Source of the DNA: Methanobrevibacter sp. TLL-48-HuF1
GTDB lineage: Archaea > Methanobacteriota > Methanobacteria > Methanobacteriales > Methanobacteriaceae
NCBI RefSeq assembly: GCF_023617305.1
Contig: NZ_CP081485.1
Location: 465,001 to 529,000 of the forward strand
DNA: 64,000 nt
Reading direction: 5' to 3'
This document shows, piece after piece, positions 1,307 through 4,427 of the stretch (position 1 is its first letter; every line of letters starts with the position of its first letter). The translations under genes and the position numbers were made by a program. The notes under the pieces were generated by a model. The model was not told the DNA's origin and did not search any database. It saw only the letters and a list, made by a program, of their open reading frames with translations.

Positions 1307-2356
1307 TCATTTTTTAAATTTATCAAAATGTCTTCTAATGATGGTTTCTTTAGAATCTTTTGTATGAGTATCTATATCTTTTTCTTCAAATTTTGAATCT
1401 TGAGTGTCTGGATCATTATAATAAAGTTCAGCTTCATTTTCCCTATAGTAATCATCATCACCATATGAATAATCACCTATGCCTTCATTATAATAGCTCC
1501 TGCTTTGAGATCTGTTATCCATATTGTTAATAGCATTTTCAATATTTTCTTCTAAAGAATCTTCCATATAAGGTTCATATTCATAATTATGCCTTTTTTC
1601 TTCTTCAAAGTTTAATTCTTCAGGATAATATTCATAATCTCTAACAGGTTCTTTTTTATAATACTCCTGAGGTTCATAGTACTCGTTTTCATCATAGTAA
1701 TCTTCATCTAAATATTGCCTTCTTTTTGACAGACAGTCATTAGAAGGTTCATAATATCCATCATCAGAATAGTATTCATTTTGAGGTCTGTTTACAGAAA
1801 AATCATTTCTGGAATGTCTGCCTCTTAAATTATTCTGATTTGATATTCTTGAGAAAATTATGTTTTCAACTTCACTAACATTTGAAATATTAGCTAATTT
1901 CATTTGATTGTTATCATAAGCACTATAAACAGAAACTGTTCCAACATTTAATATTTTAGCTACAATACTTTGAGAGGTACTTACATCCTGAATTGTTCCA
2001 TAAGGCATGTAATTTTTTTTGGTGTATAAAACTCCTGATTTAATAATAATTCTTGAATCAGTTAAGATATACTCCATATAATACCAGTTGATTAACTGCC
2101 AAATTATATACAGAATAATAAAAAGTATAATTACAAAAAGTGCAATAGCTGCATACCTTGTTAAAGATAATTTAACATAAGATATTAAATATACTTGCAT
2201 TTCACCAATAAATGTAATAATCGGTGATGCAACAGATAAAACAACAATTAATAAAATAACTCCAAAAATAGCTTTTTTACATCCTAAAAGCATATTAGGT
2301 TTGGTTTGATAAATAGTTTTTTCATTAGTTATTTTATCATCTTTATTAAACAACAT
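1307..2356 (-). CDS. PH-domain (bPH2, YdbS/YdbT-like) membrane protein with acidic Tyr-rich tail
   Basis: 349 residues. Two hydrophobic segments (about 25-55 and 68-95) are followed by a short beta-rich region (about 96-170: ILTDSRIIIKSGVL, IQDVSTSQSIVAKILNVGTV), which matches the bacterial PH domain 2 signature of YdbS/YdbT-type membrane proteins of unknown function. The remainder (about 175-340) is low complexity, dominated by Tyr, Asp, Glu and Asn with repeated YYD/YYE groups, and should be disordered and strongly acidic. It probably faces the cytoplasm, as in other bPH2 proteins, but topology is inferred. There is no strong ribosome site before the ATG. Nothing in the context gives a function. 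Confidence 0.7.
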   Translation of the reverse strand: MLFNKDDKITNEKTIYQTKPNMLLGCKKAIFGVILLIVVLSVASPIITFIGEMQVYLISYVKLSLTRYAAIALFVIILFIILYIIWQLINWYYMEYILTDSRIIIKSGVLYTKKNYMPYGTIQDVSTSQSIVAKILNVGTVSVYSAYDNNQMKLANISNVSEVENIIFSRISNQNNLRGRHSRNDFSVNRPQNEYYSDDGYYEPSNDCLSKRRQYLDEDYYDENEYYEPQEYYKKEPVRDYEYYPEELNFEEEKRHNYEYEPYMEDSLEENIENAINNMDNRSQSRSYYNEGIGDYSYGDDDYYRENEAELYYNDPDTQDSKFEEKDIDTHTKDSKETIIRRHFDKFKK

Positions 2357-2414
2357 AATATTGTATTAGAATTTAATTTTAAATAAAGTTTTTTAAGAAA
2401 ATAAGATTTAAAAA

Positions 2415-2478
2415 GTAAGCCTCAGCTCGCCCATCATTCATCACATATCAGAGCTCATAGGGTTCATCATTGGCTTAC
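2415..2478 (-). ncRNA. C/D box guide sRNA (2'-O-methylation guide)
   Basis: On the minus strand this 64-nt element has every part of an archaeal C/D sRNA in order: a 7-bp terminal stem (GTAAGCC, 2472-2478, with GGCTTAC, 2415-2421), C box ATGATGA (2464-2470), a 12-nt guide (2452-2463), D' box CTGA (2448-2451), a 4-nt spacer, C' box TGATGA (2438-2443), a second 12-nt guide (2426-2437) and D box CTGA (2422-2425). It is much more GC-rich than its surroundings. By the D+5 rule the D' guide would direct methylation of the C in AGCTCATAGGGT and the D guide the second C in CTCGCCCATCAT. The sRNA starts 7 bases after the pan stop codon and may be processed from the pan mRNA. Confidence 0.88.
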
Positions 2479-2485
2479 ATATTAT

Positions 2486-3739
2486 TTAAGCAAACATCAC
2501 GCCTGCTTCTTTTATAAATTCATCGTCACGTTCTTTATCAAGAACTTTTTCCACAGCATCCATGAAATCAGTTACTGTAACTCTGTCTCTTTTTTCACGA
2601 ATAGCAAACATACCTGCTTCAGTACATACTGCTTTTAAATCAGCACCAGAAAGACCGTCAGTTAAACTGCTGAGCAAATCCAAGTCTGCTTCTTCATCTA
2701 AAGCCATGTTTTTAGTATGTATCTTTAAGATTTGTTTTCTTCCATCATCATTAGGAAGCGGAACTTCAATGAATCTGTCAAAACGACCAGGTCTTAATAA
2801 TGCAGGATCCAAAATATCCGGACGGTTTGTTGCTCCGATAATTCCAATATCCCCTCTAGATTCAAATCCGTCAAGTTCTGCAAGTAACTGCATTAAAGTT
2901 CTTTGAACCTCTCTATCTCCACTAGTGGAACTTTTAAGTCTTTTAGCTGCAACAGCATCAAGTTCATCAATGAAAATAATGGCAGGTGCTTTTTCCTTAG
3001 CTAATTCAAATACTTCACGAACAAGCCTTGCTCCTTCTCCAATGTATTTTTTAACAAATTCAGAAGCTACAATTTTGATAAACGTAGCATTTGTTTCATT
3101 AGCTACTGCTTTTGCAAGTAAAGTTTTACCTGTTCCAGGAGGTCCATATAATAATATTCCTTTAGGAGGGTCAATACCTATTTTTTCAAATAATTCTGGT
3201 TCTTTTAAAGGAAGTTCAACAGTTTCTTTAACTTCAATTATTTGATCTTCAAGTCCACCAATTTTATCATATGTAATATCAGGTTTTGTTTCAATTTCCA
3301 TTCCTGTAACATTTGCATCTTTTTCTGATGGTAAAACTTCTACAATACCAAAGGTTTGCTGATTTAGAGCAACTCTGGAACCTGGTACTAATAATTTTTC
3401 ATCTAAGAATTTTGAATAATTAACTAAAAAGCTAGGTCCGGTACTACTTTTAACAGTCATTCTGTGATCATCCAAAACTTCAGTAATAGTAGCTAAAACT
3501 AAAGGAGGTGATCTGAATCTCTCTACTTCAGAACGTAAGGATTTAGTTTCTCTTTCTAATCTGATTTTCTCATTTTCGATTAGAACTTTATCTTTTTCTA
3601 ATTTCCTAACTTTCCACATTAAATTACTTTTAGCTCTGGAGTTTTCTTCTTTTAATGAATCTATTTCTTCTTGCATTGATTCAACTTTCTCAACTAATTG
3701 TTCTTTTGAAGAATTCTCCAAATCATTAATATTATCCAT
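2486..3739 (-). CDS. pan: Proteasome-activating nucleotidase (PAN), AAA+ ATPase
   Basis: PAN is the hexameric ATPase that unfolds substrates and feeds them to the archaeal 20S proteasome. Visible features: an N-terminal coiled coil (about 10-75), an OB-fold region (about 80-145), Walker A GPPGTGKT (about 199-206), Walker [10 protein letters not shown] (about 254-262), an arginine-finger region (LLRPGRFDR) and a C-terminal AAA lid. It ends in MFA, where the usual HbYX docking tail has Tyr in the middle, so this is an HbFX variant. I chose the ATG at 3739 because a GGAG box lies 9 bases upstream; a TTG at 3754 in the same frame overlaps that box. The resulting 417 residues are normal. The gene is divergent from aMBF1. 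Confidence 0.95.
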
Positions 3740-3944
3740 AGGACTCATCTCCAATAATATTGATTGAAAATTTTTATAATTTCGACATCTATGTTACTTT
3801 AATAACCATTAGTAACATTAACATATTTAAATTTTATTATTATGCTATTTTACTAAATGATAATATTTAAAATTTATGGGAAATTAATTATATACATTAA
3901 CTGATAAATACTTAATTAATTAAATTAGGAAAAAACTGATTAAT
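3740..3944. promoter_or_regulatory. Divergent promoter region between pan and aMBF1
   Basis: A 205-bp gap separates the divergent starts. Facing pan (minus strand) a TTTAAATA box lies near 3825-3833; facing aMBF1 the sequence TTAATTATATACATTAA lies near 3885-3902, about 45-60 bases before the ATG. Both look like archaeal TATA elements, but in DNA this AT-rich the exact boxes are uncertain. Confidence 0.4.
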
Positions 3945-4427
3945 ATGGAATGCGAAATTTGTGGTAGACAAGTATCTGACAATCCTAAAAGAGCAAAAAT
4001 TGAAGGATCTGTCATGATTGTTTGTGATGAATGTGCTAAGCTTGGAAAAATACAAAAAGCACCTCCAAAACCAAAATTTAGAAAATCAAACAAACCTAAG
4101 AAAAATAAAAAAACAAGACAAAATTACTCTAAAGATGAACCAAAAGAAGAATTAATTGAAGATTTTAACATCAAAATTAGAAAAGCCAGAGAATCTAAAA
4201 ACTTATCAAGAGAAGAATTAGGTCAAAAAATCTATGAAAAAGTTTCTGTTATAAATAGAATTGAATCTGGTAAAATGATTCCAGATATAAGATTAACAAA
4301 AAAATTAGAAAATGCTTTAAATATTACTTTAATTGAGAATGTGGAAGAACTGGATTTAAGCAAGTACACAGGTAACTCTTCACAAGGCCGTACTCTCGGT
4401 AATGTTGTAAAAATTAAAAAAAGATAG
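3945..4427 (+). CDS. Multiprotein bridging factor aMBF1 (zinc ribbon plus HTH)
   Basis: A 160-residue homologue of archaeal MBF1, a conserved HTH protein linked to transcription or translation. The N-terminus carries a zinc ribbon with two Cys pairs (CEICG at 3-7, CDECAKLG near 28-35). A Lys/Pro-rich linker (about 40-75) follows, then a Cro/C1-type helix-turn-helix (about 78-135: IRKARESKNLSREELGQKI, INRIESGKMIPD). Length and order match the archaeal family. It ends exactly where the convergent DUF356 gene ends, and both stop codons lie in one hairpin terminator. Role in ribosome association is family knowledge, not visible here. Confidence 0.92.
   Translation: MECEICGRQVSDNPKRAKIEGSVMIVCDECAKLGKIQKAPPKPKFRKSNKPKKNKKTRQNYSKDEPKEELIEDFNIKIRKARESKNLSREELGQKIYEKVSVINRIESGKMIPDIRLTKKLENALNITLIENVEELDLSKYTGNSSQGRTLGNVVKIKKR

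Follow-up and report, generated by a model that had tools for sequence, protein, structure and literature searches.

Directly downstream of the gene for the proteasome-activating nucleotidase (pan) of Methanobrevibacter sp. TLL-48-HuF1, the minus strand of the window (the whole stretch of 64,000 nucleotides that was analysed) contains a complete box C/D sRNA gene of 64 nt, terminal stem included, at positions 2478-2415 (467415-467478 of the contig). The observations as a whole are best explained, with high confidence, by an sRNA, probably derived from the pan transcript, that would guide the 2'-O-methylation of the wobble C34 of pre-tRNA-Met with its first guide and most likely of C2558 of the 23S rRNA with its second one. 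Read 5' to 3' on the minus strand, the gene is composed of the 5' arm of the terminal stem, GTAAGCC (2472-2478), a single A, box C (ATGATGA, 2464-2470), a D' guide of 12 nt, ACCCTATGAGCT (2452-2463), box D' (CTGA, 2448-2451), the spacer TAT (2445-2447), box C' (GTGATGA, 2438-2444), a D guide of 12 nt, ATGATGGGCGAG (2426-2437), box D (CTGA, 2422-2425) and the 3' arm of the stem, GGCTTAC (2415-2421), which pairs with the 5' arm. The original prediction of four boxes in order, two 12-nt guides and a 7-bp stem was thus right to the base when the sequence was read directly. The order of the boxes (C, D', C', D), guides of about 10-12 nt and a short D'-C' spacer, 3 nt here, are the characteristics of archaeal box C/D sRNAs, as is a host with fibrillarin and Nop5; both proteins are encoded in this genome by adjacent genes (PF01269, 284.3 bits, and PF01798, 216 bits). 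L7Ae has been called universal in archaea (PMC5539422), and the sRNA would assemble with L7Ae, Nop5 and fibrillarin.

A strict descriptor (the four boxes and their spacing, with the stem left out) matched once in the window and in none of 300 dinucleotide-preserving shuffles of it, and a looser descriptor gave the same result (one match and 0/300). Genome-wide, a search with the half descriptor TGATGA-N9-14-CTGA-N2-12-TGATGA, which is blind to sRNAs with variant boxes, gives three matches, of which only the sRNA next to pan is completed by a D box. The other two were discarded because they lack this box; one is located inside an open frame of 214 codons. A protein-coding reading of 2415-2478 was also discarded, as no listed ORF of at least 60 aa covers it, and so was an attenuator, as no intrinsic-terminator-like stem is present in 2200-4000. 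It had been anticipated that annotation pipelines would overlook an sRNA of this kind, and this holds for Rfam-type annotation, since no Rfam family matches the sRNA at gathering scores. Below these scores 46 matches were listed, all of them to C/D-box families and with agreement mostly in the boxes; the best one was sR1 (41.8 bits against a threshold of 45, E 6.8e-10), while sR41 reached 24.8 bits against 54 and sR49 15.2 against 50, so the sRNA belongs to none of these three families. Taken together with its conservation, described below, the stretch is strongly supported as a box C/D guide RNA, and it is almost certainly a real and functional guide RNA of a known kind.

The target of the D' guide is very probably the wobble C34 of tRNA-Met before the intron is removed. 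The tRNA genes of the genome were located with RF00005 (33 matches) and read with ARAGORN, which gave 33 distinct tRNA sequences in the loci fetched. The guide forms 12/12 pairs (eleven Watson-Crick and one G-U) with GGCUCAUAGGGU of the pre-tRNA-Met, and its base five positions from box D' (N+5) faces C34 of the CAU anticodon. This site scores 10.0/10, and the next best among the 33 distinct tRNAs scores 5.0. The tRNA-Met gene (G000:C1:846895-847004 of the same genome) is separate from the sRNA gene and contains a 36-nt intron after position 37; the pairing comprises eight exon bases and four intron bases (GGGU). The first eight bases, GGCUCAUA, are also present in the tRNA-Met after splicing and in both remaining CAU tRNAs that were read, whose next four bases stay unpaired, and the mature tRNA was rejected as a target because it forms only 8/12 pairs. 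As the four intron bases are needed for full pairing, the intron would supply the specificity among CAU tRNAs: the pairs with GGGU would single out the pre-tRNA-Met from the two other CAU tRNAs that share GGCUCAUA. The dependence on the intron also implies that methylation should precede splicing. A C34 at N+5, a pairing that extends into the intron and an sRNA encoded outside the tRNA gene are all found here, as in guides for Cm34 of tRNA-Met, and the intron-bearing tRNA-Met is considered the elongator by its likeness to known archaeal genes (PMC2584109).

This target is also present in the relatives. In a pattern search, GGCTCATAGGG or GACTCATAGGG was found in 55 of the 60 genomes of the genus, and the five without a match are at most 84% complete; one of the target patterns used, GRCTCATAGGG, detects the GGCTCATAGGG form. 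Twenty of the genus loci were fetched, and ARAGORN identified 19 as intron-bearing tRNA-Met, the twentieth being an unrelated GACTCATAGGG. Among the more distant groups of relatives, three of four f3 loci are tRNA-Met and the fourth lies at a contig end, and the f4 relative has the same tRNA body, yet ARAGORN assigned another intron and anticodon to it. The f2 relatives are uninformative on the tRNA target, because control matches to the target pattern were about as many as the real ones.

The core of the sRNA was searched with blastn in 100 genomes, namely its own and those of relatives. It is present at E <1e-20 in 58 of the 60 genomes of the genus, its own included (the two without it are 77% and 89% complete), and at E 1.1e-15 or better in all 12 genomes of the same order and likewise in the only other genome from the class; four of the 27 genomes labelled as the same domain have partial core matches with E below 1e-4. 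Of 151 genomes of the class, 135 contain the exact two-guide pattern, as do 88 of the 91 good ones (completeness of 90% or more and contamination of 5% or less); three of the 16 genomes without an exact match are well assembled. In all, 88 loci from 88 genomes were read, 63 of them obtained with blastn (50 of the 58 genus matches and all 13 from the order and class) and 25 first returned by the two-guide pattern, and the full anatomy of the sRNA is present in every one. The pattern that returned the 25 already contains most of the guide sequence, so conservation is fairly counted over the 63 blastn loci. Boxes C and C' read RTGATGA and boxes D' and D read CTGA in 63/63. The D' guide is identical in 62 of the 63, the remaining one differing at the outermost base only. 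In the D guide, none of the 63 departs from the ten inner bases, TGATGGGCGA, and changes are confined to its first and last base.

The comparison of the pan 3' region among relatives, which had been proposed as a check, thus found the C/D boxes retained in every blastn locus, but it contradicted the expectation that boxes would be conserved and spacers variable, as conservation is equally high in guides and boxes. Guides held fixed in this way point to fixed targets. The D'-C' spacer is 3 nt long in 77/88 loci (range 3-7 nt). In an ungapped comparison of 46 of the 49 same-genus loci (three were left out because of another spacer length or a contig end), mean identity to the window was 62% for the 14 nt before box C, 60% for the 33 nt after the 3' stem, 85% for the spacer and 100% for the D guide, which the selection of loci left free. 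The terminal stem, counted over the 86 loci with full flanks (two of the 88 are at contig ends), is maintained by compensatory change. Pairs 1-3 are nearly invariant, with one unpaired cell, and pair 7 is unpaired in 12 loci; pairs 4-6 vary and are still paired in 82-85 of the 86. Pair 4 is A-T in 61 loci, G-C in 16, G-T in 8 and unpaired in 1; pair 5 is A-T in 54, T-A in 22, C-G in 4, T-G in 4 and unpaired in 2; pair 6 is T-A in 57, A-T in 21, G-T in 4 and unpaired in 4.

The D guide has no site in the tRNAs (best score 4.0/10 among the 33 distinct ones), and it most likely directs the 2'-O-methylation of C2558 of the 23S rRNA, in the stem that closes the A-loop. When it was compared with 13 rRNA regions from 12 distant archaeal genomes, the best site was UUCGCCCAUYAA, or a near relative of it, beside the A-loop in ten regions, and this site was equal best in the other three. 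Four of the distant genomes with rRNA carry the guide themselves (G073, G083, G093 and G095), and in these no other site of the rRNA region scores as high as the A-loop stem, which pairs with the whole guide core, with no or one G-U. The base at N+5 is C2558 in E. coli numbering: in the E. coli record it is position 2548 of a 2894-nt annotation, to which ten was added to align the A-loop U2552, the full length of this 23S rRNA being presumably 2904. The N+5 rule for the methylated base is that given in PMC4644070. In five genomes, among them one that is not known to carry the guide, 500 trials each with shuffled D guides attained the observed A-loop score 14, 15, 7, 3 and 2 times, so complementarity alone is moderate evidence. 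A stronger sign for this target comes from G083, where an sRNA combines the same D guide core with a D' guide matching a site at U2552, six bases from C2558 (10/10 core Watson-Crick pairs). The partners of the same D guide in G093 and G092 showed no convincing rRNA site; as no rRNA of G092 itself was found, its guide was scored on that of other genomes.

The target in the organism's own class is an extrapolation from these distant archaea, as the 23S rRNA of the class was not found: RF02540 and a 16S pattern had no match in the organism's own genome, and none was obtained in 73 genomes of the class (G000-G072) with either the target pattern or a universal pattern for 23S rRNA. A Methanobacteriales 16S primer pattern retrieved seven stretches from the genome contigs, including a Methanobrevibacter contig whose first bases already belong to the 16S rRNA, and in viral contigs there were nine matches by chance outside rRNA. 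One viral contig, IMG/VR UViG_3300009564_000091, opens with a 23S-like stretch (about 1-120) that could be a chimera or a captured fragment.

The same sRNA, with the same tRNA-Met target, could instead have a D guide directed to the decoding region of the 16S rRNA, or a D guide with no fixed target, a possibility that we consider improbable but the most serious of the alternatives. Of the 13 rRNA regions, 12 hold the 16S site ACCGCCCGUC(A/G), which in all of these pairs with guide positions 3-11 and forms one or two G-U, and the base at N+5 is one that we take to be C1402 in E. coli numbering. The same pairing occurs in the one Methanobrevibacter 16S rRNA that was read, so that, unlike the 23S site, it has been observed in a member of the presumed genus. 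However, the A at guide position 2, which is invariant in the 63 blastn loci, faces a C there, and in the four distant carriers of the guide the A-loop outscores the 16S site (9.5-10.0 against 7.0); another 23S site reaches 8.0 in G083. The association of the D guide with a second guide for U2552 in G083 also argues for the A-loop, since both guides would act on the same loop. The G083 sRNA (about 1025-1085 of its locus) is in itself worth recording, with two guides that fit U2552 and C2558, overlapping sites six bases apart in one A-loop. The archaeal A-loop (helix 92) is known as a hot spot of methylation, with U2552 predicted as a site in five species and C2556 in two (PMC4644070); C2558 was not found as a site in the main text of that paper.

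The pan gene (2486-3754, minus strand) is identified by NCBIfam TIGR01242 (628.8 bits against a cut-off of 500) and is the upstream neighbour, and likely the host transcript, of the sRNA. Its stop codon ends at 2486 and seven bases (2485-2479) separate it from the sRNA, in agreement with the distance originally given. The tie to a proteasome gene that was proposed from this proximity stands as far as genomic linkage is concerned. With pan as a tblastn query, the gene was found upstream and on the same strand in all 63 blastn loci, and in a second set of loci, with five genomes common to both, it was found in 29 of 30; the contig of the thirtieth starts within pan, 85 bases before the match, and the apparent last codons of pan are visible. 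All 88 loci read therefore have the sRNA behind pan in the same orientation, one of them judged by the C-terminal tail of pan only. Between the pan stop codon and box C there are 14-38 nt in the 63 blastn loci and up to 287 nt in other genera of the family, where an own promoter is therefore possible. A run of at least six T within 45 nt after the sRNA is present in 44 of 48 genus loci and in 94 of 2000 random stretches, a soft control because random stretches of the same loci include coding DNA; in the window the longest run after the sRNA has five T (2410-2414, minus strand) and may mark the end of transcription of a pan-sRNA unit. It is plausible, as the simplest reading, that the sRNA is trimmed from a pan-sRNA transcript, that is, from the 3' UTR of the pan mRNA, at whose end it would probably be cut or trimmed. 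Most archaeal C/D sRNAs have no promoter of their own, and many are located at gene ends (PMC7994747).

The gene directly downstream of the sRNA (1307-2356, minus strand) encodes a bPH_2-domain protein with a long acidic tyrosine-rich tail, and the second gene after pan, likewise on the minus strand (239-1285), encodes a THUMP-domain methyltransferase of family TIGR01177 that probably modifies RNA. The gene for the multiprotein bridging factor aMBF1 (3945-4427, plus strand, TIGR00270) is divergent to pan.

The linkage to pan in 88 loci, together with the downstream T run, would also be compatible with an element whose main role is in cis: a kink-turn of the pan 3' UTR, bound by L7Ae, that affects mRNA stability or 3' end formation and for which guiding is secondary. 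L7Ae binds kink-turns in many RNAs, and the title of PMC5539422 suggests a role in translational regulation. Such an element needs no invariant guides, though, whereas both guides are conserved and the D' guide matches the pre-tRNA-Met; its distance from pan varies between 14 and 287 nt, and G073, which is not a member of the class, has both guides although the 2.2-kb locus of its sRNA contains no pan, making this alternative very unlikely. A chance resemblance or a decayed, functionless sRNA gene would fit the failure to reach any Rfam gathering score, but it can be practically dismissed against the 0/300 shuffles, the class-wide conservation and the covarying stem.

The preferred reading, a guide for pre-tRNA-Met and probably the A-loop, has parallels in known systems. 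The methylation of C34 in an intron-bearing tRNA-Met guided by an sRNA outside the intron has been described, with sR49 predicted for it in Pyrococcus, 18 candidates for guides of tRNA-Met are reported in a supplementary list, and the pairing of the guide uses the intron, which means that methylation must precede splicing (PMC2584109). A guide from Haloferax volcanii was reported by Joardar et al. in 2011 (cited in PMC4033218 and PMC6601510, and named sR-tMet in PMC4033218); like the present sRNA, it is a box C/D RNA for Cm34 of the elongator pre-tRNA-Met. Halobacteria, however, have more degenerate boxes and a D'-C' distance of 19-21 nt, against 4-10 in other orders (PMC2584109), whereas the present sRNA has consensus boxes and a D'-C' gap of 3. 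The Rfam consensus of sR41 contains GCCCUAUGAG before its last CUGA, of which nine bases are equal to the present D' guide, but its Met-like guide is the second one and that of the present sRNA is the first; sR41 has been given another target (PMC2584109). The guide encoded in the tRNA-Trp intron (Cm34 and Um39) likewise methylates the wobble C of an intron-bearing pre-tRNA, although it is located inside the intron of its own target and the present sRNA is separate. In human cells, SNORD97 and SCARNA97 direct box C/D RNPs to C34 of the elongator tRNA-Met (PMC6601510), but these are eukaryotic and two RNPs cooperate, unlike the present sRNA.

The tRNA-Trp type seems to be present in this genome too: the intron of its tRNA-Trp(CCA), near 1288721 of G000:C1, contains GTGATGA-TCAATTGGAGTA-CTGA, a candidate intron guide that fits GACUCCAGUUGU of its own tRNA with C34 at N+5 (9.5/10, the best of 33 tRNAs).

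As the mechanism of Cm34 guides is already known, the present sRNA is a new or unlisted member of them, and a relative of it may already be among the 18 candidates of PMC2584109. No earlier report in Methanobrevibacter or in connection with pan was found among the top-ranked open-licence papers. What sets it apart from the known guides is the frozen partner guide that fits the A-loop, the class-wide place behind pan and the existence of swapped relatives. The latter are found in G073 and G095, two genera of one distant family, in which a single sRNA has both guides, the one for the A-loop preceding that for tRNA-Met. Both genomes also have an intron-bearing tRNA-Met with CGCTCATAGGGA, and the inner ten pairs of the Met guide form in both, the first pair being C-G in G095 as well. 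The swapped order looks as if the gene had undergone a circular permutation; there is precedent in Nanoarchaeum for permuted as well as circular C/D sRNAs (PMC3491384), and the swapped relatives provide a clean example of permutation of a guide RNA gene. According to the review PMC7994747, the second guide of tRNA-directed sRNAs of Pyrobaculum has no target, and a frozen second guide that fits the A-loop in distant carriers offers a testable case against that statement.

It is conceivable, though unlikely in our estimate, that one RNP deliberately couples the wobble mark of tRNA-Met with one in the ribosomal A-loop, which receives the CCA end of the tRNA, as an ancient unit tied to pan. Within that reading, the guide pair would be ancient and selected as a unit because both guides are frozen across the class and occur swapped in a distant family, and, if it were true, the place behind pan would tie the supply of the guide to the proteasome transcript. 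For the organism itself, its own tRNAs show how an intron can act as an address that separates one CAU tRNA from the two others, and the Methanobacteria gain a clear and near-invariant guide for the wobble position of tRNA-Met.
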